From positions 1-28,393 of IMG/VR virus record IMGVR_UViG_3300017763_003712: 28,393 nt of DNA. One strand, 5' to 3'. A program made the position numbers and the translations under genes. Of this stretch, positions 3,777 to 28,393 are shown piece after piece (within the stretch, counting starts at the first letter, position 1; the number at the start of each line of letters is the position of its first letter). Under the pieces are notes generated by a model. The model had not been told where the DNA came from. It saw only the letters and a program-made list of their open reading frames with translations, and made no database searches. Origin of the DNA: a virus.

Positions 3777-3784
3777 TATTTATA
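3777..3784 (-). promoter_or_regulatory. Late promoter (TATAAATA) for gp8
   Basis: The minus strand reads TATAAATA here, an exact match to the T4 late-promoter element used by the phage sigma factor gp55. It lies in the gap between the gp7-like and gp8 genes, 30 bases from the gp8 ATG, giving room for a leader of about 24 bases. This is the clearest promoter in the window. Confidence 0.75.
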
Positions 3785-14852: not shown

Positions 14853-14858
14853 ATTTTA

Positions 14859-16718
14859 TTAATCTCGTGAGACTGTAGTATAACTAGCTAGACCAGAAGA
14901 ACCAGCAATACTGATATTATCAATATCTCCTTGTATATTAGTTCTTTCCACGTCTATTTGTAAAATTTTCTTTCTTTGTGAAATTATATCATCGGCTGCC
15001 GGTCTAACTTCTACTCGTAATGATTCGTTAACGTCATTCTGCAAATCTGATAAATCGACTAAACCTGTATTAGGATAGAGATAACCAACATTTGCATTAA
15101 TAATAACAACCCGACCATTGGAGTCTATTTGGTACGCATAGATTTGTCGTTTTTCGCTATCACCTGGAATGTGTTTATCCGCAAGAATTGCTTCCTTTCC
15201 TCCAATTATAATTGAAGACGTTGCAATCATTGATTCGGACTGGTCAATCTTTCCATCAATCGTAAATCCAAAATCTACCTGAGCAGTATCTAAAGAACTC
15301 GCTGTAATGTTTACTAATTTATATGCGTATACTCTAGCGATATTGTTCAAGATAGCCGGATTAGCTGCGTCGATTGAAGCTAATAAATTAGAGTGTCGGT
15401 ATACACCGTCAAAATTGTTTAGTTTCGATTGATTGTAATTAATTAGTGTTTGCTTAATAGTAGAAATTAATCCGCCTAAAGATGTACTAGTACCACTTGG
15501 GTCGTATTTAAAGAAAACTTCAAAATATATATATGTGTATTCGGGGTCAACAATAACTGGAGTTATACCAACCATCTTTTTAGACTCAAGCAATGAAAGA
15601 ATTTCAGCTTTCTGTAAAGTAGTTAAATACGGAGCGGCGGTCGGTTTAGCTGAAATATAAACTTTACCGAATTGTGGAATAGGTTCTGTTTCGCCGCCCC
15701 ATGCCGCAACGTTGTCAAGCCCTGAAAAGCTTTTCATAATGATTGACTTATAGTCGTCAGATGTTACAGCTCTTTCCTGTGAGATAAAGGATAATGGGGC
15801 GTTATATTTAATTGAATTAATATCTTCTACCTGATTACCTCCAGCTGCTTTTGCTGTAGTAGTAACTATCGCCGAGCCTGATTCGTATTCTAATCCACTT
15901 TGACCATCGGTAAAATTGAATAGAGAAGCTCCATTTGTTAAAGGCCCTTCGGAAACCAAATATGTAAGTCTAACTAGACCCGAGGCTGCAGGTCTTGCAC
16001 CAAAAAGATTATTACCAAAGCGGATTTCAAAATTGCCATCTGCATTTTCATCTACAAAATAAATTTTTGAAGTACCATCTACGTTTGGAAATTCGGTAAA
16101 TTTATTATAGGCTTGCTGAGTACCATTGACCGCTGCAATTGTTGGAAAGACTTCTACTTTTAATGTTGAGGTATCTGCATTCTGCGCGTTAATAACAAAT
16201 CTTTGGTCATAACTATTATCGATTGTGTAATTCTCTACTCGAGTAGTACCCTGTTTAATAATTAGATTATTAAACGTAAAGGTTTCTTGAGATTCGTCTT
16301 TTTGAGCAACTGTAATCTCGGCTGTTTCAAATGAATAAGTTGTAGAATCAATACTAGTAGTAAATTGAGTACCTTGAGGAAGGGTGAGTGTGCTATTACT
16401 AGCTCCTTGTTTCGAACTCAATACTAATTTTATTGATGCTGATGGTGCAGTTACAGACTTAGGAGTATATCCAAGGAGCTTCGCGCGGGAAACAACATTA
16501 CCACGAACCTGAGCGGAATCAAGAAAGGATTCGTTCATTGCCATGTGAGCATTAACCGCATTATAATGTGTATTATATGCAAGAATGTCCATTATGTGAT
16601 CAAGGCCAGAGCCTGAAAAATCATAGTCCGTAAATGGACCTCCGCTGCGTTTAAAATAGTCAATAAGATTAGCTTTAATCTTATCAAAATCTAGTTCTGT
16701 TGTATTAAATTGTGACAT
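14859..16718 (-). CDS. 6: Baseplate wedge subunit gp6
   Basis: This 619-residue protein matches T4 gp6 (660 residues), which forms the inner ring holding the six wedges together and belongs to the gpJ-like baseplate family. Residues about 10-95 carry the hallmark: IKANLIDYF, then DYDFSGSGLDHIMDILAYNT and NESFLDSAQVRGNVVSRAKL, closely matching T4 EFLDYDFEGSRLNVLCDLLAYNT and YESFMRTANLRSSVVQAA. The central region has the expected sheet-rich part (FEIRFGNNLFGARP), an AVTSDDYKSII block matching T4 VTATDYDTFV, and YISAKPTAAPYLTTLQKAEI matching T4 AAKPKSGLYLTTVQREDI. It follows gp25 by one base, so the pair is translationally coupled. The length is close to normal and I see no broken motif. Confidence 0.95.
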   Translation of the reverse strand: MSQFNTTELDFDKIKANLIDYFKRSGGPFTDYDFSGSGLDHIMDILAYNTHYNAVNAHMAMNESFLDSAQVRGNVVSRAKLLGYTPKSVTAPSASIKLVLSSKQGASNSTLTLPQGTQFTTSIDSTTYSFETAEITVAQKDESQETFTFNNLIIKQGTTRVENYTIDNSYDQRFVINAQNADTSTLKVEVFPTIAAVNGTQQAYNKFTEFPNVDGTSKIYFVDENADGNFEIRFGNNLFGARPAASGLVRLTYLVSEGPLTNGASLFNFTDGQSGLEYESGSAIVTTTAKAAGGNQVEDINSIKYNAPLSFISQERAVTSDDYKSIIMKSFSGLDNVAAWGGETEPIPQFGKVYISAKPTAAPYLTTLQKAEILSLLESKKMVGITPVIVDPEYTYIYFEVFFKYDPSGTSTSLGGLISTIKQTLINYNQSKLNNFDGVYRHSNLLASIDAANPAILNNIARVYAYKLVNITASSLDTAQVDFGFTIDGKIDQSESMIATSSIIIGGKEAILADKHIPGDSEKRQIYAYQIDSNGRVVIINANVGYLYPNTGLVDLSDLQNDVNESLRVEVRPAADDIISQRKKILQIDVERTNIQGDIDNISIAGSSGLASYTTVSRD

Positions 16719-16719
16719 A

Positions 16720-17154
16720 TTATCTTAATCTTTCTAAGTAAAAATCTATAGTTTGATCGCCCGGTGTACCAATAACATTAAAATGTACACTAACGGCCAT
16801 AGCATTCAATTCTGCGTTGTCCTGTATGTTAACTTTTATCTTACCTACTCTAGGCTCTAGGCTCGAGATCATATCTTTAATTTTATTTCTAATAGACTCG
16901 AATGTATAGACATCTACATTATCAAACAATTGTTCAAATATACCACTGCCTATATTTGGGTTAAACAATCTTTCACCTCTTTGGGTTAGTAGCAAATTTT
17001 TAACAGACTGTTTAACTGCATCAATATCAGTAATAGGCCGGATATCATTATATGCGGGATGTGGCTTAAAAGATAAATCTAAATCGGCAAAAACCCGATC
17101 TTGCTTGACCGAGATATTCGACGCGCCATTGTTATTATAATCCGAATAAGCCAT
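16720..17154 (-). CDS. 25: Baseplate wedge subunit gp25
   Basis: At 144 residues this is close to T4 gp25 (132 residues), a wedge component with the gp25/GPW fold that links the wedge ring to the sheath. The core is clear: DAVKQSVKNLLLTQRGERLF, then NPNIGSGIFEQLFDNVDVYT, SLEPRVGKIKVNI and a final strand HFNVIGTPGDQTIDFYLERL. T4 has the matching KNSLLGIITTRKGSRPFDPEFGCDLSDQLF and NYEPRIDKLAVNV. The first 25 residues are extra. A late-promoter octamer ends 6 bases before the ATG and there is no Shine-Dalgarno. The stop is one base from the gp6 ATG. Confidence 0.95.
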   Translation of the reverse strand: MAYSDYNNNGASNISVKQDRVFADLDLSFKPHPAYNDIRPITDIDAVKQSVKNLLLTQRGERLFNPNIGSGIFEQLFDNVDVYTFESIRNKIKDMISSLEPRVGKIKVNIQDNAELNAMAVSVHFNVIGTPGDQTIDFYLERLR

Positions 17155-17160
17155 ATCAAC

Positions 17161-17168
17161 TATTTATA
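17161..17168 (-). promoter_or_regulatory. Late promoter (TATAAATA) at gp25 start
   Basis: An exact TATAAATA on the minus strand lies in the 20-base gap between the 535-residue gene and gp25. Initiation roughly 6-7 bases downstream would fall on or next to the gp25 ATG, which would give a nearly leaderless gp25 message. The match is certain; its use is inferred. Confidence 0.6.
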
Positions 17169-17174
17169 AGACTT

Positions 17175-18782
17175 TTAGTAGTCTTCGCCCAAGAAATCCT
17201 GCAGCTCTGGACTAATTCTTATGGGCTGGGTGGCTCCTTTAGGCACTTCGTGCACAAACCCATAGGAAGCCAAATCTTTATGAGCTTGATAAGTGTCTGC
17301 GAATTGTGTGACATATCTTTTACCATCATCGCTAAGCGAATACATGAAGTGCGGAATAAATGAAGATTCGGAATGCTCAGATACTTGACTAGTATCTTCT
17401 TCAGTTGCATTTCCCGAAAGTACGGATTCCCACGGTTCAAGTTTTCCGCCGACTGAATTTGGTATAAAGTTTTCTGCGGATGGAAAGTCTTCTAATTCTT
17501 TGACTGCGGTATTTGTTGTCCAAGAAATCATTGTTAAAAAGGCCAATCGACTTTCTTTACTAATTATTACTTTAGCGTTAAATAAAGTATTTACATAGTC
17601 TTGTATCATATTGGCATAATCATTATCTGCTTCTACATGAGTACTATTTCTTATGCTCGTGATAGTATAAAAATGTGGAATAAAATTTGCTCGATAATCA
17701 TTATATTTAAATTTAAATGCTGGTGGTATTCTTATCTTAGCTTCATCCGTACCACACAATTGCCTTAAGCCATATCCGTACTCTGGATTATATTCTTTAA
17801 TGCCGAAACCCACTTCATTATATACCTGTCGCTGGAGTTGGGGTTTGTATTGCTCATCAAATTTTCCATCATACCACCGGTTATTGCCCCGAACGTCAGG
17901 TCGTCTACCGAGAGTAAGAAGCACCTTGCTCCCATAGTTCGATATCGCAGACTCCATATTTGCATATGCTGTTAGCTTTGACTTATATAAAACCCAACGG
18001 TCTAATGCAGGTGGAACTCGTATGTTTGGGTTTAATAAATAATAATCAGCCACTTGGCCCTCTGGGTTTCTTATTTTCCACGCAGACGGTAGGTTGTGAA
18101 ACATAGTGGATGCCTGAGTTTGGTCGCCTTGTTGAGTCATTCCGCGGGTCGTCTCTTCCATCTTCTCGCGAAGTGATTTCATAAATTCTTTCTCGGCTTC
18201 AACTATTACGGCCTTCGCGGCTTTCGCTTGAGTTACAGAAAATCCTGACTGCGATATTATTTGGTCTACCTTCGGATCTGTCGGCATCTCCGCAGCAGTA
18301 GGTTGAACTGGCTCTGGGTCTTCTTGCTCTGGATTACCATCAATATTTTCTACTACATCAATAGTAGTAGGTGTTGGTTCTAATTTACCATCTGCTCCAA
18401 CCTTAGCTTCTACTTTAGGAACGTCTTTACATATATCAAAGTCCAATAACGCAAGTGGGTTTTTTACTATATCCAGTACATCTTCAATATTATCGACGAG
18501 GTCACCCCACGCGTTTTGTATTTTCTGTAAGTCTTCTAAAAGCTCAGGTGCACCGGCCTTAGCTTTTGCGATTAGTTTATTAATTTCATCTTGAAAATTA
18601 GGAATTTCTGGCAACTTCGGTATACTTAGATTCATCGCATCTAGTTGCTCTTGGGCAGCTGCCTTTATGTCAGCCAATGCGTCTTTGCCAAGAGTGTCTA
18701 ATTGAGCAAGCTTATCAGCCAATGCTTTTTTCTTTTCTTCTAAGCTCGCTAATAATTTATTCTTTCCACAATCTATTGCCAT
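17175..18782 (-). CDS. Unrecognised virion/baseplate protein, 535 aa
   Basis: I do not recognise this family. An ATG 72 bases upstream is in frame, but I choose 18782 because a strong Shine-Dalgarno (GCAGGAGGTTAAG) stands just before it and the longer form would overlap the PAAR gene. Residues about 10-130 (KNKLLASLEEKKKALADKLA onward) look alpha-helical and probably coiled coil. Residues about 140-200 are acidic and proline-rich (EDPEPVQPTAAEMP), like a linker. Residues about 235-430 form the likely globular domain, rich in Tyr, Trp and Arg (WKIRNPEG, LGRRPDVRGNNRWYDG, EYNPEYGYGLRQLCG, RANFIPHFYTI). No signal peptide or membrane segment is seen. Its place between the PAAR tip and gp25 suggests a structural part of the hub or spike. 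A hidden enzymatic role cannot be excluded. Confidence 0.7.
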   Translation of the reverse strand: MAIDCGKNKLLASLEEKKKALADKLAQLDTLGKDALADIKAAAQEQLDAMNLSIPKLPEIPNFQDEINKLIAKAKAGAPELLEDLQKIQNAWGDLVDNIEDVLDIVKNPLALLDFDICKDVPKVEAKVGADGKLEPTPTTIDVVENIDGNPEQEDPEPVQPTAAEMPTDPKVDQIISQSGFSVTQAKAAKAVIVEAEKEFMKSLREKMEETTRGMTQQGDQTQASTMFHNLPSAWKIRNPEGQVADYYLLNPNIRVPPALDRWVLYKSKLTAYANMESAISNYGSKVLLTLGRRPDVRGNNRWYDGKFDEQYKPQLQRQVYNEVGFGIKEYNPEYGYGLRQLCGTDEAKIRIPPAFKFKYNDYRANFIPHFYTITSIRNSTHVEADNDYANMIQDYVNTLFNAKVIISKESRLAFLTMISWTTNTAVKELEDFPSAENFIPNSVGGKLEPWESVLSGNATEEDTSQVSEHSESSFIPHFMYSLSDDGKRYVTQFADTYQAHKDLASYGFVHEVPKGATQPIRISPELQDFLGEDY

Positions 18783-18786
18783 AATC

Positions 18787-19077
18787 TTAACCTCCTGCAA
18801 ATACGTTTGATGAACCAGCCGCGACTGAAGTACATCCACTAATACCATCACCAACTCTTCCGCATCCTAGTCCATTTACTTTTACTGTAGACGATCCTGC
18901 TGCTATTGGAGCAGAATGAGAACCGCACGGGGAAGGTGGAATTAAGTGCCCTGTGTTATTATCGCCTTGCCTAGACACTGGAATCCCATTCGCGAATACA
19001 TTACTGCTTCCCGCGGCCCTTACCATTCCACTACAATGAGCCACATCTGCGTCTCCTATTCTTGTTACTGCTGGCAT
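18787..19077 (-). CDS. 5.4: PAAR-motif spike tip protein (T4 gp5.4-like)
   Basis: This 96-residue protein has the PAAR pattern: MPAVTRIGDADVAHCSG at the start, then three glycine/serine turns of the type AAGSSNVFANG, AAGSSTVKVNG and AAGSSNVFAGG. PAAR proteins form a sharp zinc-bound cone at the end of the gp5 or VgrG beta-helix. Candidate zinc ligands are H14, C15, H44, C51, H54, C72 and C82; three His and one Cys are usual in the family. The length and repeat number are standard, with no extra effector domain fused. The gene lies downstream of gp5 but is separated from it by the xylanase and protease genes. A near-consensus late promoter lies 6 bases before the ATG. Confidence 0.92.
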   Translation of the reverse strand: MPAVTRIGDADVAHCSGMVRAAGSSNVFANGIPVSRQGDNNTGHLIPPSPCGSHSAPIAAGSSTVKVNGLGCGRVGDGISGCTSVAAGSSNVFAGG

Positions 19078-19082
19078 ATCTC

Positions 19083-19090
19083 TATTTATC
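19083..19090 (-). promoter_or_regulatory. Possible late promoter (GATAAATA) before PAAR gene
   Basis: The minus strand reads GATAAATA in the 27-base gap upstream of the PAAR ATG. It differs from the T4 late element at the first base only. As at gp25, it is so close to the ATG that any message would be nearly leaderless. Confidence 0.4.
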
Positions 19091-19112
19091 TGTATATTGA
19101 ATGTTTATACAG
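19090..19112 (-). other. Small stem-loop at the subtilase stop codon
   Basis: CTGTATA (19090-19096) and TATACAG (19106-19112) form a perfect 7-bp inverted repeat with a 9-base loop, covering the stop codon of the subtilisin-like gene. There is no T-run after it on the minus strand, so it is not a standard Rho-independent terminator. It could be chance in AT-rich sequence or an mRNA-end structure. Confidence 0.3.
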
Positions 19113-20733
19113 AAGCTAATTTAGAATTAATCTGAGCTATTGTATAATTAAGACCTTGTGTTGTAGTAGTTTCGACGGGATATGTAATACTAACGTCTGA
19201 AGCATACTGTGACGATGGATCGAATGGTAAGGTGGGGTCTAAGTATGTAATATTACCTGAGTAACCTTGGCAATTTAAACCATCATTAAAATACTCTGGA
19301 TCGCCGAAGTCGCCTAGATCAGTTGTTAATGTCGTTTTTCCATCATATGCGGTTTCACTCGAAATAGCTTCTTCTCTAAAGAATTTTCTCATTTGTGCCG
19401 GCGTCGTGGTTGGATATTTCTCTAGAACCAAAGCAGCCATCCCTGCTATTTGAGGACATGCAAAAGATGTACCTCTAACAGATGCACCTTGTTGATTAAT
19501 ATTATCACTCATATCAATCAACGTTCCTGCGGCGGCGCAATCTACTCTAGGGCCACGATTAGAACCAGAATATATTTCTTCTTTATCATCATTAAAAGTA
19601 TTAAATCTACTGCTTAAATTTGCTACTATAATAGAATCATCCGCCCATTGGTAAGAACCCCTATTATAATAAAAATACCCATTAGTATTAAAATTTTTGA
19701 CCCGGTTATTCCAATCTGTGCCAGCAGGATGATCGCATTTTTGAGCTTCATTGCCAGCGCTGTAAACAGTAATCACACCCGCGTCACTTAGCGCTTGGGC
19801 AGATGTACCTATGCCAGAGGTTTGGCCCAAGCCAACTTTAAATTTCGACCGCGCGCCTATACTCGCAAGAGGCATACCACCAAGCCCTGGCTCATGAGCT
19901 CTATTTTTTAAAGACATCCCTTGGTATGTTGTAAACGTGGTACCACGAAAGTCGTATTCATGTTCTGACTGTGTATTTGCACCGCTAGAATAACCATACG
20001 CTGCGAAGAAAATTGTTGGTCTATAAGTGCCACCAGCGGCATCAGATATTTTTTTCAAATGAAATTCTTTAGCAGCGTCAAAGTAATCGGTCGATGTACC
20101 TACCTGATCGCGTGGTATAATATATATATTTGCAGCTGTTGCCCATCCGTATGTGTTCGAACATGCAATTGCTAAACATGCTTCGGCGTGTTTGGTGTTA
20201 GCGCGCGCAGGATCATCAATATAACTTATAGTTTCCATTTGAGACATATTCGGCAAAGTATTCCATTGTAGTTGTTGTATTCTACTAGTACCGCTAGTCT
20301 TATATTCGCTATTATCTATATCTGGCATTTCCGCTGCTAAAAATATAATATCGACACCATTACCATCATAATTATATGTGTAAGTGTTATCTACTTGAGT
20401 ATCCACCGCTGTGTATGGATTGACATCATTGCTGTGTCTTATTAATCCCCAATTTCCGTCGCCTTTCACAGATGCTTGGCCATAGGGCTGTGAACTCCGA
20501 CCTAAATTATTAACCGCTTTTGTTGCATCATTAACTTCATATCCTTTAAGCAATTCAACCGATTCGACATTAGTAACATTATTATTAAGCTTTAACACAT
20601 CTACCTGGTCATCTGTGCATTCAGCAATAAAAAATAGAGGATTACTATTTTGCTCATTAACCACATTAGTAACCAACGAATATAGTTCATTTTGTTGAAT
20701 AGAATCGGTAAAAGATATATAATATTTTTTCAT
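19105..20733 (-). CDS. Subtilisin-like (S8 family) protein with degenerate Asp box
   Basis: This 542-residue protein has a subtilase core. The nucleophile motif GTSFACPQIAGMAALVL contains S423, and the oxyanion Asn is N328 in YSAGNEA. H182 in KHAEACLAIACSNTYGWA fits the catalytic His by gapless comparison with phage subtilases of the GHGTH...TYGWA type that I remember, although the flanking GHGTH is lost. The Asp box is odd: where VxxxDSG is expected the sequence is VDIIFLAAEMPDID (about residues 127-140), with Ala at the likely Asp position; D138 or D140 might substitute. Residues 1-70 resemble an I9-like propeptide. There is no Sec signal peptide, which suits a protein assembled into the virion. 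The stop of the xylanase gene is one base from this ATG. The C-terminus ends in QINSKLASV, similar to the xylanase tail. It may be a weakened protease or a pseudo-enzyme. Confidence 0.85.
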   Translation of the reverse strand: MKKYYISFTDSIQQNELYSLVTNVVNEQNSNPLFFIAECTDDQVDVLKLNNNVTNVESVELLKGYEVNDATKAVNNLGRSSQPYGQASVKGDGNWGLIRHSNDVNPYTAVDTQVDNTYTYNYDGNGVDIIFLAAEMPDIDNSEYKTSGTSRIQQLQWNTLPNMSQMETISYIDDPARANTKHAEACLAIACSNTYGWATAANIYIIPRDQVGTSTDYFDAAKEFHLKKISDAAGGTYRPTIFFAAYGYSSGANTQSEHEYDFRGTTFTTYQGMSLKNRAHEPGLGGMPLASIGARSKFKVGLGQTSGIGTSAQALSDAGVITVYSAGNEAQKCDHPAGTDWNNRVKNFNTNGYFYYNRGSYQWADDSIIVANLSSRFNTFNDDKEEIYSGSNRGPRVDCAAAGTLIDMSDNINQQGASVRGTSFACPQIAGMAALVLEKYPTTTPAQMRKFFREEAISSETAYDGKTTLTTDLGDFGDPEYFNDGLNCQGYSGNITYLDPTLPFDPSSQYASDVSITYPVETTTTQGLNYTIAQINSKLASV

Positions 20734-20734
20734 T

Positions 20735-23146
20735 TTAGCTAATGCTTCCTAATTTGTTGTCTAGCTCAGACGTATTTATATCATTTAATGTCAATAGATT
20801 TCCATTAGTATCACGCAAAGGTACACCGTTCGATGAATAAATTAGATTTAGATTAGTTGCTATAGCTACGAACTCAGTTGTTACTGGCGCTTGTGATACA
20901 ATAACGGTTTTAGAATTTGTACCTGTATTACCAGATGAATCAGTCGCAGAATATGTAACTACATATGTGCCAATCGCACTTGGATTAACCGTGTCCCCGC
21001 CGATTGTAACTGATAACGTTCCGTCGCAATGGTCATTAGCATTCGCGCCCAATTCTGTATAAGTATCATTGGTATCTATATTTAGCGGGCTTGAACCATT
21101 TAAAGTAATTACTGGAGCAGTTGTATCTTCAACTAAAACTGTTCTTGTGGCAGTACCTATATTACCTGACGAGTCGGCTGCAGTGTATATAACAGTATAT
21201 GTACCCAATGTGCTAGTATCAACTGTATCACCTCCAACTGTTACTGCTAATACGCCTTCGGTCGCATCATTAGCTTCCGCGCCTAAGTCTGTATATACAT
21301 TGCCGCACTCAATATAAACATTACTTGAACCATTTAAAGTAATTACTGGAGCAGTTGTATCTTCAACTGCAGTCGAACTAGAGCTTGAACTAGAGCTTGA
21401 ACTAGAGCTTGAACTAGAGCTTGAACTAGAGCTTGAACTTGAACTTGAACTTGAGCTTGGAGTTGGAGTAGGAATAACAGTAGGCTGAACTTCCATATAA
21501 GTCTTTAACCACGTTAAAGCGGGTCTTTCTCCCGTACCATCACGATTAATTAGTCCGGTCTGATGGCCCTGGTCGTATCTCCAATTCTCTGTGTTAATAT
21601 ATCCCCAAATCGTTACCCGTTCTACATTAGGGTGATTCCATATCGCTGGAAAAATAACTTGATATCTATCGAGTTGCTTTTGATCTATATCGATACTATC
21701 GCTGTTCGTACCTGAGATATCAAGCTCAGTAATATGAATAGGTAATCCAGTTTGTGAATGTACATCATCAATCGCTGCAGTAATTTGAGCTGCGGTCAAA
21801 TCATTAATATTAAAATAATGAGATTGCATACCTACCCCGTCAATTAAATTTGGATTATGATTTTTAATTGCATTGACTGCAGCGCAATTTTCATCACGAA
21901 CTGTTTGATTACTCATCATACCAAAATCGTTTATCCAAATTTTTGCATTTGGAAAATAATTTCTTACTGTCTCGAAAATATAAATCGCCCAATCATAACC
22001 ACTCGTACCAGCTCCACCAAATTGATTTATGATTCGAGTAGTACCAGCGTCTTGGTGACCTGTAGCGATTTCATTAAGCGCTGCGATACCATAGATATCA
22101 TCTCCATATCGTGTAGATATTGCACTACACCAAGCTTCAAAGGCTGACTTACTTTCAGTAACACTTAATCCTTCCCACCAATCGGGTGTACCTTGATCAG
22201 CTCCCCAAATTAATGTATGCCATAACATTTTAATCCCATTTCTCTTACAGTGAGCATGTAATATATCAGCTCCACTAAAATCGAATGTACCACGATTTTT
22301 TTCTACTGGCTGCCATTTACAAAGATTTCCGGCAGCAGCACTATTCCACAAGTCAGCATAATTTGCAGCATTTTGATCAGTAACAAAAGGTTGAGTGGAT
22401 TGTATTTCACTCATCTGGGCTGTATTAATATTGCCAAGTAGCTTACCTTTTTGATATGCTAATGCACCTATGTTATCTGCAACTTGTATACGTTGTGCAG
22501 TAGCTCTACCTATAAGTTGAGGAAAAATATCTTCACGATTTAAAACCGTGTGAGTGAATTGATAATTTAGGCTATCAGTCGCAGTACTATCGTATACAAC
22601 ATCAAAATATACTGAATATATAACGTCAACTTCTGTTGAAGACCCCTGCGTGGCTTTAATTAATTCGACATTCTCAGGCAAATCCATTATATTATTTGCA
22701 ATAGTAGGCACCACAATAGTTGGAAAACTTTGTTGTTCTATTACAAACTCTTCTGCAGTTAATTCTCTTTCTACAAGATTCTCAACCTTTGTTTTTGCGC
22801 TCAATCCAGCTGGTACATGTTTTACTACATCATCTGTGAATGCGCCGTCGTATTGTCCGACTAATCTTATTTTATATTCTCCACTGGTGTCTACTGTATG
22901 TGGATATGTTACAGGTGTTCCATCCAACTCAAGCGTAATTGTTATAGTATCATTTGTGCTCACTGGAGTTGAGCCGTAACTAAGAAAAGGAGAACTGACT
23001 TCCTGAGTAAGCGCTGTTATGGTTGTAATATTACCTTCGGGGCTAGAGTCTAGGTTTTTATTGACAGTAATTAGTTTGGTAAAATCAAAAAACTCGCTTC
23101 TGTTTTTATCTTGAGAATTAATATTTGTGATTTCAATATCTGACAT
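20735..23146 (-). CDS. GH10 endo-beta-1,4-xylanase domain protein with polyserine linker and Ig-like repeats
   Basis: Residues about 215-555 form a GH10 TIM barrel, the family of endo-beta-1,4-xylanases. Visible landmarks are NLCKWQPVEKNRGTFDFSGA, the WHTLIW motif with the substrate-site His, ALNEIA with acid/base E359, GMQSHY, HITELDIS with nucleophile E474, and VTIWGYINTENWR. Most subsite -1 residues are therefore kept. Residues 1-210 are beta-rich, unrecognised and have no signal peptide, so they may anchor the enzyme to the virion. After the barrel come PTPTP, a run of 28 serines, and two DUF5011/HYR-type Ig-like domains (about 593-671 and 672-750), each starting EDTTAPVITLNGSS. A tail ends in SELDNKLGSIS. 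The gene overlaps the 65-residue gene upstream by one base (TAATG) and lies inside the hub gene cluster. The likely role is cutting a xylan-like or related surface polysaccharide during attachment; the substrate is not proven. Confidence 0.9.
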   Translation of the reverse strand: MSDIEITNINSQDKNRSEFFDFTKLITVNKNLDSSPEGNITTITALTQEVSSPFLSYGSTPVSTNDTITITLELDGTPVTYPHTVDTSGEYKIRLVGQYDGAFTDDVVKHVPAGLSAKTKVENLVERELTAEEFVIEQQSFPTIVVPTIANNIMDLPENVELIKATQGSSTEVDVIYSVYFDVVYDSTATDSLNYQFTHTVLNREDIFPQLIGRATAQRIQVADNIGALAYQKGKLLGNINTAQMSEIQSTQPFVTDQNAANYADLWNSAAAGNLCKWQPVEKNRGTFDFSGADILHAHCKRNGIKMLWHTLIWGADQGTPDWWEGLSVTESKSAFEAWCSAISTRYGDDIYGIAALNEIATGHQDAGTTRIINQFGGAGTSGYDWAIYIFETVRNYFPNAKIWINDFGMMSNQTVRDENCAAVNAIKNHNPNLIDGVGMQSHYFNINDLTAAQITAAIDDVHSQTGLPIHITELDISGTNSDSIDIDQKQLDRYQVIFPAIWNHPNVERVTIWGYINTENWRYDQGHQTGLINRDGTGERPALTWLKTYMEVQPTVIPTPTPSSSSSSSSSSSSSSSSSSSSSSSSSSSSTAVEDTTAPVITLNGSSNVYIECGNVYTDLGAEANDATEGVLAVTVGGDTVDTSTLGTYTVIYTAADSSGNIGTATRTVLVEDTTAPVITLNGSSPLNIDTNDTYTELGANANDHCDGTLSVTIGGDTVNPSAIGTYVVTYSATDSSGNTGTNSKTVIVSQAPVTTEFVAIATNLNLIYSSNGVPLRDTNGNLLTLNDINTSELDNKLGSIS
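20773..20780 (-). promoter_or_regulatory. Late promoter (TATAAATA) for subtilisin-like gene
   Basis: An exact TATAAATA on the minus strand lies inside the 3' end of the xylanase gene, 40 bases before the ATG of the subtilisin-like gene. A leader of about 33 bases with a GGAAG ribosome site would result. The position matches that of the gp8 promoter. Confidence 0.6.
21090..21368 (-). repeat. 45-bp perfect direct repeat marking two Ig-like domains
   Basis: Bases 21090-21134 and 21324-21368 are identical over 45 positions, 234 bases (78 codons) apart. Each copy encodes VEDTTAPVITLNGSS, the first strand of an Ig-like domain. The domains differ more elsewhere, so this is a recent or gene-converted duplication of a DUF5011/HYR-type module within the xylanase gene. 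Confidence 0.9.
21374..21458 (-). repeat. 12-bp tandem repeat encoding polyserine linker
   Basis: Five exact copies of GAACTAGAGCTT (plus strand, 21375-21434) are followed by degenerate hexamers GAACTT/GAGCTT to 21458. In the gene this gives 28 serines in a row using AGC, TCT, AGT and TCA-type codons. Polyserine linkers of this kind are known from Cellvibrio and Saccharophagus carbohydrate-active enzymes. The repeat length is a multiple of three, so copy changes would only alter linker length. Confidence 0.95.
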
Positions 23147-23343
23147 TACATAGTTTCCCGTTCCATTAATTCCTGTAACTTACCTTCCCACTTTTCCATT
23201 TCCTCGTGTTGTTCATCGGTATGAGGTGAAGGTGGTACTTCAGGTACAAATGCAATTACATTTTCAAAAGACTCTGGTATTTCTTCGAAATTTTGATATA
23301 CCTTTGTTCTTCCATTTATTAAAATTTTAAAATAATGGGCCAT
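23146..23343 (-). CDS. Small conserved-looking hypothetical protein, 65 aa
   Basis: This short protein starts MAHYFKILINGRTKVYQNFE, continues with an IPESFENVIAFVPE segment, and ends in an acidic, glutamate-rich helix (EQHEEMEKWEGKLQELMERE). I consider it real because its ATG overlaps the gp5 stop by one base and its stop overlaps the xylanase ATG by one base, so it completes a coupled series with no gap. It has no membrane segment or signal peptide. The first part could be a small beta unit and the last a helix. Its function is unknown; position suggests a hub chaperone or an adaptor between gp5 and the enzymes. Confidence 0.75.
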   Translation of the reverse strand: MAHYFKILINGRTKVYQNFEEIPESFENVIAFVPEVPPSPHTDEQHEEMEKWEGKLQELMERETM

Positions 23344-24671
23344 TAGTTTAAGTCAATTCGTGCACCATCAACATCCACATTTGCTGGTGTTGTCATTGTG
23401 ATATTTCCTACAGCATCAATATCTAAAGTCGATGTCACATCAATCTTATATGTGGTATCAATAACATCTGTCCTTGCACCGGTATTTTGTTTAAGCGTAC
23501 CAATAACTGACCGCGATTCATTACCCATAATTACACTGTTTAAATTTTTACCAAAGGTGATATTCCCGCTTCTCTTACATTCAAACTCAAACGCTCTTGG
23601 AGAATCATTTGCTGATGGAGATTGGTGACTAGCGTGAATAGTTCTTTTTTCGAATTCGCCAATACTAGAAATTAAATTTCCTTTTACATTCATCATTTGG
23701 TTTTTATCTACTTCAAGAAAATCAGACATCACGATCTTTTCATGCTTATTGCCACGAACTAAAAGGTGATAATCTTTTTCTACTTCCATATAATAATCGC
23801 CTTTAACCAATGTTCTTGCATCACCGTTAATAGTTACATTGCAATTTCCTTTAATAGAAACATTATTATTTTCAAGTACAACCTTATATTCATTTCCATT
23901 TACAACGATAGTTTTATCTCCACTAGCATCAATTTCACTATAAGTACCTGAAGTATGTTGTACTAAAATTCTTTCGTTATTTGGAGTTTCATCAAATTCT
24001 ACAATATGACCACAGCCGTATTCTTTAGTATGGCAATTAGGATACGTAGGATTTGTAATGTCTTCTTGGCTTTCTTGTAACCATCGTTTTCTTTCAAAGA
24101 ATTTGGCGTCTTTCTGCAAAGTATTCTTAAGTGTGTCTGTGCTAGGCGGAACCGCCATTGGTATATTTACTTTCTTGCCGTCTTTATCGACCGCGCGAGA
24201 ATCATTCCGTAAACTACTTTTATCAATATAAGACTTAGACTCCCTATATTCACTGGTAGCACCTTTAGGTTGGTCATTCGCGTTTGCAGTTCTGGGATTT
24301 TCTCCAAATGGATCCGCGAACCCCTTTTCGTAATCAGAACCCATGGGTGTTCTAGATGGTAATGTTCCTAATACTAATGGGTCTTGGCATGCCTCGCCAT
24401 CTCTAAAGAATCCAACTACCCAGCTACCTTGAACAACACCAGTAGCAGATTCACCAATACCAGAGCATGACCCAGAAGTAATTGGTGTCATCACGTTCGC
24501 CCACGGCAAATCAATAGTACGAATACCGTCTTCTTTATTTTTATTTGAGGTGTGATAACCAAAGCATCTTACTCTCACTCGTCCTTGTTCATACGGGTCG
24601 CGAATATCTTCTACTACACCAATAAACCAATGAAACCCCGTTGATAGGAAATTATTATTTTTATAATCCAT
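23343..24671 (-). CDS. 5: Baseplate hub/spike protein gp5 without lysozyme domain
   Basis: This 442-residue protein has the T4 gp5 N-terminal OB fold: FHWFIGVVEDIRDPYEQGRV, LPWANVMTPITSGSCSGIG and VQGSWVVGFFRDGEACQDPL (residues about 13-105). The C-terminal half (about 240-442) is a repetitive beta-helix of VgrG/gp5 type (NGNEYKVVLENNNVSIKGN, VNGDARTLVKGDYYMEVEKD, ending NVDVDGARIDLN) that makes the trimeric spike. In T4 gp5 (575 residues) a lysozyme domain of about 170 residues lies between these parts. Here the middle (about 110-240) is a charged linker with no T4-lysozyme motif I can see. The gene starts 3 bases after gp27, its structural partner. A GATAAATA element lies about 53 bases upstream inside gp27. 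Confidence 0.92.
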   Translation of the reverse strand: MDYKNNNFLSTGFHWFIGVVEDIRDPYEQGRVRVRCFGYHTSNKNKEDGIRTIDLPWANVMTPITSGSCSGIGESATGVVQGSWVVGFFRDGEACQDPLVLGTLPSRTPMGSDYEKGFADPFGENPRTANANDQPKGATSEYRESKSYIDKSSLRNDSRAVDKDGKKVNIPMAVPPSTDTLKNTLQKDAKFFERKRWLQESQEDITNPTYPNCHTKEYGCGHIVEFDETPNNERILVQHTSGTYSEIDASGDKTIVVNGNEYKVVLENNNVSIKGNCNVTINGDARTLVKGDYYMEVEKDYHLLVRGNKHEKIVMSDFLEVDKNQMMNVKGNLISSIGEFEKRTIHASHQSPSANDSPRAFEFECKRSGNITFGKNLNSVIMGNESRSVIGTLKQNTGARTDVIDTTYKIDVTSTLDIDAVGNITMTTPANVDVDGARIDLN

Positions 24672-24674
24672 AAT

Positions 24675-26045
24675 TTAAATTTCGGAAAAAACTGAATCCT
24701 TTTTGCATTCTACGTCACATGTATATTTATCTTCTTGATCGTTAAATTCAAATTTGTGTAGAACTGACGTTATTAAATAATTACCAGAAAGCAATTTGTC
24801 GAGATGCCCGGTATCAGCATCTTCGCTGTTATACCCGCGGTATGCTATAGCTTCCATAGATTTAGGAAATAACAATTTGATTTTTCTACCAGCCTGTAAA
24901 TTAAAATCGCCATTCAATGTAATATTTTGGGTCATTGTATTTAATTTAGAATTAAACGCGTTTATTGTAGCAGCCCCGTGTCGCATATCATTTCCATAGT
25001 TCTTATTTGCGCCATACGCTAATTCATTGATAGAAAAATATTCTGTATGGGCATCAGGCAAAGAATTTAAAGGTCTACTGTTATTCCTTCCAATCTTAAA
25101 AGACTGCGATAATAGTGTATGGCCTCTGTCTGATACAGCAGTCTTTCTAACATTCGAACCGCTATCACCACCATAATCAAATTCTTTCTGTTTAAATGTT
25201 TTATTTGACAAATCTAGAAAATTATTTTTCGAGGCATAGCCGCCGCGTACTGATTGCGCAACCTTTGACATACCTAAATTAGAAGAGAAATCTAGTATTC
25301 TAGTCTGTCTTTCTACATAATCATCTTCGGTATGAGGTGCTGCAGTGTATCCTTTTAAATAGACATATGCATTGTAATTTTTATTTAGTTCCGAATCCAT
25401 TAAATACGACAGTGAATATAGTCGTACCATGTTATCAATGCTCTGGAAGAAAAAGAATGGTGCTCCGTTTTCATCGTGAGCAGATTTTCTAAAATACTCA
25501 ATTGCGGATAATGGTTCTTGCATATTAATTATACCTTTATGCCTAGAAACATCAGTTCCTTTAATAGACATACTATCATAAAATAAATCATTTTGTACAA
25601 TTCTTCTAATCTGCTCACTAGCACTACTATTATATGCCCTAGAGATTTTCATAAATTTAGAATTATACGCATGATGCGAAATTCCCTTTAAAACGTATGC
25701 TTGCTGATTAGCATTAGTATGGGATTTTGCGAAGTCAGAGTATTCTGTAATCACAAATTCCATAGTTCTATTAACCGGGGTGTCACTTACAAATGGCCAT
25801 TTCTCAAACTCAATACTTAAAGTCTCTTGTCCAATAAGAGCAAAAGACTCAAAGAAATTAACTGAATCCGCAATAGTAACTTCGATTATAATTGAAGGTA
25901 AGTATATACTTTCACGAATTACAATATTAGAAATCAATTCGTCAATCACACGGAAGTCTCCTGTGTGATTATATAATTTAGCACTTACTAAACTGAAATG
26001 CGAAGGGTCTAAGCTTTTTCCACTGCTCGATAATGTTGTTGCCAT
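24675..26045 (-). CDS. 27: Baseplate hub protein gp27
   Basis: This 456-residue protein fits the T4 gp27 family (391 residues), the trimeric ring that sits on gp5 and adapts the sixfold tail to the threefold spike. Supporting features are an N-terminal beta domain (FRVIDELISNIVIRESIYLP, IIIEVTIADSVNFFE), a central region with ISHHAYNSKFMKISRAYN and FFFFQSIDNMVRLYS, and a C-terminal domain with LSGNYLITSVLHKFEF and a YTCDVECKKDSVF end, which is typical of phage hub proteins. It precedes gp5 by 3 bases. The ATG has an AGGAAAT ribosome site. The order gp53-gp27-gp5 differs from T4 but is a plausible hub grouping. Confidence 0.85.
   Translation of the reverse strand: MATTLSSSGKSLDPSHFSLVSAKLYNHTGDFRVIDELISNIVIRESIYLPSIIIEVTIADSVNFFESFALIGQETLSIEFEKWPFVSDTPVNRTMEFVITEYSDFAKSHTNANQQAYVLKGISHHAYNSKFMKISRAYNSSASEQIRRIVQNDLFYDSMSIKGTDVSRHKGIINMQEPLSAIEYFRKSAHDENGAPFFFFQSIDNMVRLYSLSYLMDSELNKNYNAYVYLKGYTAAPHTEDDYVERQTRILDFSSNLGMSKVAQSVRGGYASKNNFLDLSNKTFKQKEFDYGGDSGSNVRKTAVSDRGHTLLSQSFKIGRNNSRPLNSLPDAHTEYFSINELAYGANKNYGNDMRHGAATINAFNSKLNTMTQNITLNGDFNLQAGRKIKLLFPKSMEAIAYRGYNSEDADTGHLDKLLSGNYLITSVLHKFEFNDQEDKYTCDVECKKDSVFSEI
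24724..24731 (-). promoter_or_regulatory. Possible late promoter (GATAAATA) before gp5
   Basis: GATAAATA on the minus strand lies within the 3' end of the gp27 gene, 53 bases before the gp5 ATG. It is one base from the T4 late element. It falls on a coding Asp-Lys-Tyr segment, so it could be chance. Confidence 0.3.
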
Positions 26046-26055
26046 AATTTATTTC

Positions 26056-27546
26056 CTAATAACCCCCACCGCCGCCGCCGCCGCTAGAAGGAGCACCTCC
26101 ACCGCCACCAGCAGAACCACCGGATGAAAAACCTCCACCACCAGTAGAAGCAGTAGATATGATTCCATTAGTACTTCCTACCCGAGTAAGACCTTGATTG
26201 AGTTTCCGTTTAAATTCTTTTACAAAATCTTCAATTAATTCAGGCCGGACAATTTTAATTCGACTTTTTTCATCATTCACACGTATTGCTGATTGATAAT
26301 TACTAACATAATTCATTGGTTCTTGACCTTCTACTGCAAGTTCATTTCCATATGTTAAGTATTTGTATTCGCCATCAGCGTCAAGATATTGTTTTCGCTG
26401 AATACCGTTTAGCATATCATGCGCATTAATTTTATCGTCAAGATTTGCTGGGTCACCGCCTTGTCTGTAATAATATGCAGGTGCATTTCTTGCTGAAACA
26501 AATGAATGTTCTTTACCATCGGCTTGGCGTCTATACGGCTGAAGACCATACCACTTCATGTTTCCGTTAACGAACCAAGGAGTAAAATAATTTCTAAAAA
26601 CGTTTAATGCAGCTTGAGTTCTTCCAATAGAAACATCTCTCGTCTGGTCTTGAAATTCTCTTAGAGGTAAATTATTATAGGCTAGTATAGTACCGTCTAC
26701 AGTAGTTTGGTTAGCTTGGCCAATAATTTGTGTTTCGAACCACTCAAATAAATGTTCACACCATTCAACTCTTTCTGCCGTCATAAGATTCTTATAAAAC
26801 GGACCCGGTTCCATGTGATTCGCACCGTCGCCTTCCCTATAACCATTCTCCGAATTTTCTCCTATAATTGGCCAATCGTTAAACGTAAATGACATCGTAC
26901 CTTGATGTGCCTCGCTAGCCCATGTTCCTAACGCGTTTTGCTGAAAATTTAAAACGGGGGTTTCTAATAAAGTGTTCTTTAACTCTAATTTAGCATCACC
27001 CATGAACAAATTTCTATTAGAAAAATCTTTTAGGTATAATTGATTTAGCCCTTGGTCCCATTTTACAATTGAAGCCGTGGAAAAATTTCTATAAACTTTT
27101 AAATCTTCGTAAGATAAATCTAAACCCGCTAAGCTATTTGATATATGCTCGTAATCTTTAGTTTCGGGGTCATTGTCTTCTTCTAATTGTCCCGTCGCTA
27201 CAACAATCTTATCTCTAATAACTGGGTTTAACGTAAATACGCCAATATTATCATACTCATTTGTAAATTCTGTTTCAATAGAAGAAGAGGCTTGAGGCCA
27301 ATCATCTAAACCAGCTTTTAAACTTTCATTTATAATAAAGAACGTCCAATAATAATCTGGTGTACCATATAGCCTTTGCGATAAATTGTCTGGTCTTTCG
27401 CCGTCACCGATCGTTATCAATCGATACGATGCAATATCAGAAGCGAGAATGTCATTAACGTCTACGTGGCGGAATAAATCAACAATCGCTTTAGGCTGAT
27501 TGCCTATTTGTAATTGTGTAAATGGAAATTGGCTGAAAAAACTCAT
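26056..27546 (-). CDS. 53: Baseplate wedge subunit gp53, extended, with glycine-rich tail
   Basis: The N-terminal 150 residues match T4 gp53 (196 residues), a wedge protein. The marker block is at residues 50-70: ERPDNLSQRLYGTPDYYW, followed by TFFIINESLK and a DWPQAS motif. The protein has 496 residues, so over 300 are additional. Part of the extension contains aromatic segments (WCEHLFEWFETQIIGQ, YFTPWFVNGNMKWYGLQPYR). The last 40 residues are low complexity with repeated GGGG and SSGG, encoded by runs of CCACCG-type triplets on the plus strand. The ATG overlaps the previous stop as ATGA. Similar long gp53 proteins exist in marine T4-like phages as far as I recall. The glycine tail could be a flexible tether or a surface-contact segment. 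Confidence 0.9.
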   Translation of the reverse strand: MSFFSQFPFTQLQIGNQPKAIVDLFRHVDVNDILASDIASYRLITIGDGERPDNLSQRLYGTPDYYWTFFIINESLKAGLDDWPQASSSIETEFTNEYDNIGVFTLNPVIRDKIVVATGQLEEDNDPETKDYEHISNSLAGLDLSYEDLKVYRNFSTASIVKWDQGLNQLYLKDFSNRNLFMGDAKLELKNTLLETPVLNFQQNALGTWASEAHQGTMSFTFNDWPIIGENSENGYREGDGANHMEPGPFYKNLMTAERVEWCEHLFEWFETQIIGQANQTTVDGTILAYNNLPLREFQDQTRDVSIGRTQAALNVFRNYFTPWFVNGNMKWYGLQPYRRQADGKEHSFVSARNAPAYYYRQGGDPANLDDKINAHDMLNGIQRKQYLDADGEYKYLTYGNELAVEGQEPMNYVSNYQSAIRVNDEKSRIKIVRPELIEDFVKEFKRKLNQGLTRVGSTNGIISTASTGGGGFSSGGSAGGGGGAPSSGGGGGGGY

Positions 27547-28393
27547 AGTACTCTTTGGTCCTCGTTATATGCTTTGTCGACCCCACCACCACCTTTGACC
27601 AGTCCGACATCCGTTTCAACAAATCCTTCTCCATAATTAAGAGCGGTGGCACGGGATGTTCCTTTATTACTAATGCCCCTTGCATTCATCATATCGTCGT
27701 CATCAGCACCTTCAGTACTATATTTTTCAATCATATTGTGAAGGTTATCGATATCGGTTCTTTCTAGAGCTCTTGCTTCTTGGAATGTCATTGATATATC
27801 GACTTCAAGTGGTGCACCATCTACGTGCCATACAGGCGCAGTAGTATTGAACGTAGAATTAAAATTTTGAAGGTAGCATGCCATGATACCAGGCAAAAAT
27901 TTATTTGTCATAACACCCTTATCATTAATTCCTGTTAAAAATTCAATTTCCCATATAGCAGGATATTGTAAAAAACCAGCAGAATCTGATTTACCTTGAT
28001 TTAATCTTCCGGCGTACATATATCTTCTAAATCTATGATGTATATGTCTAATTGCCAATGCTTCTTCTTGACTATCTGCAATCATTTTGAAATTAAAGGT
28101 AAAAGAACGAATACCAGACCCTTGGAATGCAGTATTTTGAAATGGATTAGCAACGATTCGATTTGCAAATGTAACTTTATCTACAAACCCTTCAGCTCCG
28201 GCAAGTTTAGCTCCCATGATTCCTAATTTACCTAAGGCCTGAAGAACAGTACCACTTTTAGTAAAATTGCCGCCAAGTGAAGCAACACCAGAATCTTTGT
28301 TACCTTCTGTTCTATTTAATCCATCACTCAATCCCGCACCGAACATTCCTAAATCAATAGTAGAAAGCGCTGCATTATCAGCAAATGCGATAT
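27543..28393 (-). CDS. 48: Baseplate tail-tube cap protein (gp48-like), 5' end outside window
   Basis: The visible part is 283 codons. An internal ATG at 28346 is preceded directly by AGGA with no spacing, and the frame stays open upstream to the window edge (reading IAFADNAALSTIDLG), so the true start is probably outside. The core NPFQNTAFQGSGIRSFTFNF, then IADSQEEALAIRHIHHRFRR, YPAIWEIEF, LPGIMACYLQNFNSTFN and PVWHVDGAPLEVDISMTFQE is the tube-like fold of T4 gp48/gp54, which cap the hub and nucleate the tail tube. The C-terminal 60 residues are acidic and glycine-rich. I prefer gp48 to gp54, but the two are alike and position does not settle it. Confidence 0.75.
   Translation of the reverse strand, partial: IAFADNAALSTIDLGMFGAGLSDGLNRTEGNKDSGVASLGGNFTKSGTVLQALGKLGIMGAKLAGAEGFVDKVTFANRIVANPFQNTAFQGSGIRSFTFNFKMIADSQEEALAIRHIHHRFRRYMYAGRLNQGKSDSAGFLQYPAIWEIEFLTGINDKGVMTNKFLPGIMACYLQNFNSTFNTTAPVWHVDGAPLEVDISMTFQEARALERTDIDNLHNMIEKYSTEGADDDDMMNARGISNKGTSRATALNYGEGFVETDVGLVKGGGGVDKAYNEDQRVL

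Follow-up and report, generated by a model that had tools for sequence, protein, structure and literature searches.

A GH10 xylanase-like barrel fused to a spike-slot domain in the T4-like baseplate cluster of a viral contig

What is a xylanase-like protein doing among the baseplate genes of a phage? The question is raised by the 28,393-base IMG/VR virus record IMGVR_UViG_3300017763_003712 (hereafter "the window", meaning that whole stretch), whose minus strand carries a T4-like baseplate cluster. Within this cluster, flanked by tail and baseplate genes (gp53, a gp27-position protein, gp5, PAAR, gp25 and gp6), an open reading frame (ORF) that begins with ATG and fills positions 20735-23146 exactly encodes an 803-residue protein with a barrel of glycoside hydrolase family 10 (GH10). 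We find that this barrel is joined to a phage-specific N-terminal domain typical of a single genomic slot, the interval between the small gene p65 and the gene for the PAAR spike-tip protein. On balance, and with room for doubt, we favor the explanation that the product is an enzyme-bearing spike-slot protein: a spike-tip-associated glycanase, loaded via the slot domain, that would cut an envelope or extracellular β-1,4-glycan at entry.

The membership of the barrel in GH10, proposed in a first-pass annotation made from the letters alone, is borne out by both profile and fold. The Pfam profile PF00331 (Glyco_hydro_10) matches residues 252-547 with an E-value of 4.2e-49 and 167.9 bits (cut-off 22.1), and a phmmer search of the PDB returned 138 sequences at E<=0.001, headed by XynB (4pmx, 160 bits). 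An AlphaFold model of residues 1-560 contains a mostly confident barrel, with ten-residue means of the predicted local distance difference test (pLDDT) of 64-98 across residues 261-550. Its top Foldseek matches are GH10 xylanases, among them XynB of Xanthomonas citri at TMt 0.81-0.84 (best 4pmy, 0.84). XynB (PDB 4pmx, 4pmy, 4pn2) has the same fold and active site at a barrel identity of about 35%; the phage protein differs from it in the slot-domain fusion, the spike-cluster location, a two-residue insertion after W314 and a long, separate branch.

The residues expected of a working enzyme are also largely in place. Both catalytic glutamates, E359 and E474, lie where the first-pass annotation had put them and are kept in all three phage proteins that carry the fusion (the window's and the two described below), as well as in all 81 other rows of a GH10 alignment; among those rows is L094, which is taken from an IMG/VR contig but clusters with Xanthomonas xynB. 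At 16 of 17 positions that we take to belong to the GH10 active site, the three phage proteins hold the residue most common among the other rows, and the claim that most landmarks of the family are present thus stands. The seventeenth is Y384, where most of the other rows have Trp (65/81) and a few have Tyr (7/81). The insertion right after W314 occurs in all three phage proteins and neither in XynB nor in the eight bacterial rows inspected; since it lies beside an active-site residue, the specificity may differ. The ratio of nonsynonymous to synonymous substitution rates (dN/dS) for the barrel is 0.09 at dS 0.76 between the window and the contig L003, and 0.07 at dS 0.15 between the window and the contig L002, and the barrel is therefore under purifying selection. 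Given its intact residues, the barrel looks catalytically active, and neither the alignment nor the trees place it in a catalytically dead clade. A xylose-type linkage as substrate, also put forward at first pass, would be an expectation taken solely from the GH10 family. A signal peptide is not evident in the first 45 residues, as had been claimed, on a reading of Kyte-Doolittle hydrophobicity only: the most hydrophobic 12-mer starting there averages 0.68 (N-terminus MSDIEITNINSQ...).

The fusion recurs in two further viral contigs, L002 (105 kb; 85% best-segment identity to the window protein) and L003 (51 kb; 79%), in the same p65-PAAR position and without the poly-Ser linker, the immunoglobulin (Ig)-like domains and the subtilase-like gene of the window version. 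In all of them the N-terminal domain is related to proteins of this slot. Residues 1 to ~215 of the window protein form a diverged version of an Ig-like domain that is phage-specific and kin to PHROG 23903, a family represented by PHM2_081 of phage P-HM2, which occupies the same slot between a p65-like gene and PAAR and is a remote homologue of the N-domain. A free-standing slot protein from the locus L023 aligns to the N-domain at 32% identity (E 1.5e-11). A profile of 27 unique slot proteins, none of them a GH10 protein, detects the N-termini of the L002 and L003 fusions (1.9e-13 and 1.3e-12); with the HMMER filters off, it also detects residues 1-240 of the window protein at E 3.1e-8, the first unrelated ORF following at 0.16. 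Profile-profile comparison of the N-domain with the slot proteins gives a probability of 88% when six proteins are used and 96% when 27 are used. The slot proteins are 133-248 residues long (some are cut by contig ends) and have no recognised catalytic domain. The model of the free slot domain (pLDDT 84.6) shows an Ig-like β-sandwich and a helix at the C-terminus. Foldseek returned no match for it at E<=0.001, and the best VIA match (Z 7.9, root-mean-square deviation 3.0, 95 residues aligned) may, by the tool's own caution, reflect a mere common arrangement; kinship with pilus chaperones was not concluded. PHM2_081 (L086:4490-4999) is annotated as a "putative RTX toxin" and its PHROG product is "toxin", yet it is the slot protein in its free form, and calling it a toxin is probably a misannotation.

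How regularly the slot is used was gauged by fetching 80 PAAR loci (the best of 485 relatives) and 80 p65 loci (the best of 545 relatives) and placing both genes by aligned position. Both were found in 148 loci (71 from the PAAR set, 77 from the p65 set); p65 could not be detected in nine PAAR loci, nor PAAR in three p65 loci. The two genes are adjacent in 108 of the 148 and separated by a slot-domain protein in 35, by the slot-GH10 fusion in four (two contigs, each counted twice) and, in L229, by a 57-residue ORF in a 160-base gap. Counted by distinct p65 sequence (n=111), these classes number 83, 25, 2 and 1, respectively. A profile of six sequences (five proteins of the first set and that of P-HM2, which is outside the 148-locus count and has its slot protein between its p65-like gene and PAAR) recovered, apart from the two GH10 proteins, 31 slot proteins in the second set; 29 of them follow p65 directly and the other two precede it. 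Other occupants were also seen. In Synechococcus phage MA01, likewise outside the count, a gene annotated as an HNH homing endonuclease lies between the p65-like gene and PAAR (L087:4461-4973); it is a possible agent of recombination at this interval. Three loci (L206:4754-6115, L208:4754-5761 and L213:952-2253) have, between the slot protein and PAAR, ORFs of 335-453 residues with a common N-terminus and a variable remainder; they have no Pfam match and are perhaps a fibre-like second cargo.

The genes around the fusion appear to have moved with it. Comparison of the window with L003 reveals flanks (14546-17100 and 23778-27863) whose aligned DNA is 67-78% identical, save for one distant 56-base piece (82%), whereas identity rises to 89% across 23066-23426 (the gp5 tip, p65 and the start of the GH10 gene), 84% across 21491-22873 (the GH10 barrel) and 88% across 18750-19089 (PAAR). 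Between these contigs, gp5 has a single difference in its last 27 residues, though its overall identity is 54%. L002, which is nearly identical to the window in gp27, gp5, gp25 and gp6 (dS 0.03-0.09), has diverged from it inside the tract: dS is 0.83 for p65, 0.74 for the N-domain, 0.15 for the barrel and 0.41 for PAAR. The identity peaks with L003 and the dS contrast with L002 thus indicate that the tract from the gp5 tip to PAAR was replaced as a unit. Such exchange would be expected if the products of the tract work together; homologous recombination via the conserved p65 and PAAR genes would also favor it.

The fusion, the intact catalytic residues, the purifying selection, the fixed gene order and the cassette exchange can all be read from the sequences. 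A role at the hub or spike is the better supported because the N-domain is typical of the p65-PAAR slot in 35 other loci and because the cassette recombines as a unit. We envisage that the slot domain would attach the enzyme to the gp5/PAAR spike tip, perhaps through p65 as an adaptor, and that each virion would carry a few copies. When the phage touches the cell or its sheath contracts, the enzyme would cut a xylan-type or related β-1,4-glycan, the target being presumably a host capsule, an exopolysaccharide or the surrounding matrix. In the window version, the flexible Ser linker and the two Ig-like domains may serve for reach or binding, and the subtilase-like protein could be a second slot passenger.

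Several points weigh against a spike-tip glycanase. The virion location, activity and substrate of the fusion are inferred from sequence, and the binding of slot proteins to gp5 or PAAR from gene position only. Position alone is no proof of a spike role, as the MA01 homing endonuclease illustrates, and because that gene and the L229 ORF both occupy the interval our confidence is reduced. The interval is empty in 108 of 148 loci, and thus the slot protein is not essential for the spike; the slot proteins are themselves of no known function. PHROGs files their family under "moron, AMG and host takeover", with the product "toxin", and not under tail. In our scans of IMG/VR the fusion is carried by three contigs only. 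Further, the link from the N-domain to the slot family runs through profiles built in this analysis. With default filters the 27-protein profile does not report the window protein, a miss that we tentatively put down to composition bias, and the six-sequence profile reaches only 0.058. The whole GH10 protein has no PHROG match at E<=0.01, and its nearest kin among slot proteins, that of L023, has no match to PHROG 23903. Finally, the N-domain is poorly modeled within the GH10 protein: 142 residues have pLDDT <50, nearly all of them before residue 254.

Four other explanations were considered. The foremost, which we regard as unlikely though worth keeping in mind, is an auxiliary metabolic gene (AMG), whose enzyme would be made in the infected cell, released at lysis and active on environmental or host-associated xylan, its location in the baseplate cluster being accidental. 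Viral GH10 genes of mangrove soil viruses are indeed listed as AMGs in Table 1 of PMC6460857, PHROGs classes the slot family with morons and AMGs, and the MA01 endonuclease demonstrates that passengers with no tail role can land in the interval. Against this stand the fusion of GH10 to a slot-typical domain and its exchange together with the gp5 tip, p65 and PAAR; a signal peptide is not evident, and the L002 and L003 contigs have one GH10 match each and no further GH10. Rather less probable still is a binding or structural module, in which the barrel serves to grip polysaccharide of algae or the matrix, its hydrolytic activity being a side effect or gone. The two extra Ig-like domains of the window copy and the variable, fibre-like ORFs in the same interval of L206, L208 and L213 are in keeping with such a module, but a barrel that evolves slowly and retains both catalytic glutamates and nearly all other checked active-site residues is not what it predicts.

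The gp5 protein of the window has no Pfam lysozyme match, and the GH10 enzyme might accordingly have replaced the lysozyme of T4 gp5, having shifted to peptidoglycan or another periplasmic glycan; the insertion beside W314, not found in XynB or in the eight bacterial rows inspected, could be taken as a sign of such a shift. This we consider improbable. A lysozyme match at E<=0.01 is missing from all six gp5 proteins examined from other loci (one, L003, with GH10 and five showing none), and from all seven when the window is included. The loss therefore does not track GH10, and the active-site residues are those of xylanases. Misjoining of a bacterial gene to a viral contig, or a prophage edge, has a precedent in the IMG/VR contigs L094 and L095, each with a xylanase of the Xanthomonas xynB type near a contig edge, but for practical purposes it can be dismissed here. 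Three contigs share the same gene order at 79-85% best-segment protein identity, the N-domain is phage-specific, the third-position G+C content (GC3) of the fusion gene (0.23) is near that of its neighbors (0.24-0.33), and no bacterial GH10 locus among the best 80 of 184 relatives exceeds 39% best-segment identity, the figure for Balneola sp. The L094 and L095 xylanases, of which only that of L094 was placed in a tree, are likely host genes beside a prophage and counsel caution in surveys of viral xylanases.

A broader proposal also suggests itself, which we hold more tentatively and as somewhat short of an even chance: the p65-PAAR interval would be the phage counterpart of an effector cassette of the type VI secretion system (T6SS), with p65 as the loading adaptor, the slot domain as the unit that docks at the spike tip, and swapped enzymes or variable binding proteins as cargo delivered at entry. 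The GH10 protein (and the subtilase-like protein) would then be the first recognised enzyme cargo. According to PMC8651079, PAAR proteins of the T6SS carry effectors, and T6SS modules of VgrG, adaptor, effector and PAAR likewise have the gene order spike, small protein, variable or exchangeable cargo, PAAR. The present system differs in that it is in a phage, the adaptor role of p65 is conjectural, and the cargo is a glycanase and no known toxin. In jumbo phages, PAAR is described as stand-alone (PMC7824862). Were the proposal correct, the widespread p65-PAAR pair (at least 545 IMG/VR stretches have a p65 relative) would be a mounting point for interchangeable entry proteins and would link phage spikes to T6SS effector loading. 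It would also reveal a route by which a plant- or alga-type xylanase becomes a virion part, and would imply that some "xylanase AMGs" of viromes may serve entry rather than carbon cycling.

Glycosidases as virion components of the hub are a known kind. In T4, gp5 of the cell-puncturing device on the baseplate includes a lysozyme (PMC5380687); the GH10 enzyme, by contrast, is a protein in its own right and belongs to another glycoside hydrolase family, and gp5 of the window has no lysozyme match. Gp255 of Bacillus phage vB_BpuM_BpSp, a stand-alone glycoside hydrolase (GH25), belongs to the virion and binds to a protein of the baseplate (PMC4870245). It acts on peptidoglycan and has LysM domains, and neither a slot domain nor a p65-PAAR cassette is seen in the available part of that paper. 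A "beta-1,4 xylanase", gp072 of the T4-like Caulobacter phage Cr30, is named in PMC5380687. Its best Pfam matches (L261:34691-35875) are GH39 and GH42, with a partial GH10 match of 22.5-22.9 bits against a cut-off of 22.1, and in pairwise alignment it resembles the window protein only weakly and over a short stretch; no annotated gene in the first 50 kb of the Cr30 record, where gp072 lies, is named as baseplate. We thus rejected it as a GH10 precedent. In the open-licence PMC literature searched, no GH10 protein is described as a spike or baseplate component. A GH10 enzyme joined to a spike-slot domain, within a p65-PAAR cassette that recombines, therefore appears to be new.

Wider searches returned few relatives. 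Scans of IMG/VR with the protein, the GH10 alignment and the back-translated motif PI[HY]ITE[LF]D found only L002, L003, L094/L095 and L259; the scans need short exact peptides, so distant relatives could escape. L259 was discarded as a GH10 carrier, since the motif falls in a terminase-like ORF without GH10 (L259:1145-3121; this ORF has, by reading, an apparent intein-like insert). PF00331 matched two of 20 viral records, both known contigs, and one of five named phages (Cr30, 22.9 bits). Among GenBank phages there was no full-length relative of the fusion protein; three fecal contigs in GenBank match at 23-28% identity across 28-32% of the protein, and five records match the Ig part only. 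In trees of the barrel, the three phage sequences group together (100/100) at the end of a long stem. With all 84 rows, this clade joins L096 (Prolixibacteraceae) at 98/80. When 34 rows are omitted (L096, three Polyangiaceae and 30 of Xanthomonas/Dyella type, including L094), the stem measures 1.9 and the nearest rows are five from Cytophagaceae/Flavobacteriaceae (96/98). Both placements are flagged as long branches meeting. The nearest named phages are the Methylophilales phages Melnitz, by gp6 (36%) and by a capsid protein of the L002 contig (55%).

The features of the locus are collected in Table 1. The baseplate cluster begins with a 267-residue tail-tube-cap-like protein and continues with a gp53-like protein, the gp27-position protein, gp5, p65, the GH10 protein, the subtilase-like protein, PAAR, a 559-residue protein, gp25, gp6, a 3,679-residue protein and a gp8-like protein. 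The 3,679-residue protein (3813-14852, minus strand) occupies the place of the 13-kb gp7 wedge gene of P-HM2.

Table 1. Features of the GH10 locus and its neighbors in the window.
Feature	Position	Strand	Basis
Slot-domain/GH10 fusion protein, 803 aa	20735..23146	-	ORF, Pfam
N-terminal phage-specific slot domain, residues 1 to ~215, Ig-like, remote kin of PHROG 23903	22502..23146	-	L023 match, slot profiles
GH10 catalytic barrel, residues 252-547	21506..22393	-	PF00331 4.2e-49, fold match
E359, general acid/base	22070..22072	-	XynB alignment, invariant in 81/81 other rows
E474, nucleophile	21725..21727	-	XynB alignment, invariant in 81/81 other rows
Poly-Ser linker, residues 564-591, 12-base tandem repeat	21374..21457	-	Window only; none in L002, L003
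Two Bact_surface_Ig-like domains, about residues 602-751	20894..21343	-	PF16403 5.6e-30, two stretches; none in L002, L003
p65, 65-aa protein (phrog_24555), conserved PAAR neighbor	23146..23343	-	
gp5-like spike, OB and trimer-C domains, no Pfam lysozyme match	23343..24671	-	phrog_430 5e-81
Subtilase-like protein in the p65-PAAR interval, window only among the three fusion contigs	19105..20733	-	PF00082 5e-17; phrog_9158 1.5e-33
PAAR spike-tip protein	18787..19077	-	PF05488 2e-9; phrog_281
gp27-position tail protein (phrog_350)	24675..26045	-	Name gp27 inferred from position

This map refines the earlier picture of a GH10 xylanase between gp5 and PAAR in a tightly packed late operon. The hub-cluster location holds, but the enzyme does not directly adjoin either gene: p65 intervenes on the gp5 side and the subtilase-like gene on the PAAR side. 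The barrel had been recognised, and the slot domain, the poly-Ser linker and the two Ig-like domains had been missed. The genes are indeed closely packed, and it is this packing that suggests a late operon; the exact T4 late motif TATAAATA occurs at three sites in the window against 5.2 expected by chance, and an exact-motif search of the whole window found none upstream of the GH10 gene. All three sites (3777-3784, 17161-17168 and 20773-20780, minus strand) are on the coding strand, 7-40 bases upstream of the starts of the gp8-like, gp25 and subtilase genes; as their number is not above chance, T4 late promoters were not accepted, though the sites precede gene starts. The overall first-pass interpretation is thus upheld in part, for the GH10 identity, the catalytic residues and the hub location; the xylose-type linkage is an expectation from the family.

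Some observations concern neighboring genes. By reading, the subtilase-like protein has a Ser motif, GTSFACP (S423), a candidate His (H182) and an AGNE oxyanion motif, and it has FLAAE at the expected catalytic Asp motif; it is possibly a pseudoprotease or has a variant triad. Its peptide patterns matched no viral contig stretch, and distant relatives are present in 38 phage records, 35 of them from Synechococcus or Prochlorococcus phages. On L002's contig, a protein that resembles tryptophan halogenases, judging from its start (L177:11727-13184, minus strand), lies next to a serine hydroxymethyltransferase (L177:10583-11722, minus strand) that matches an annotated phage glyA.

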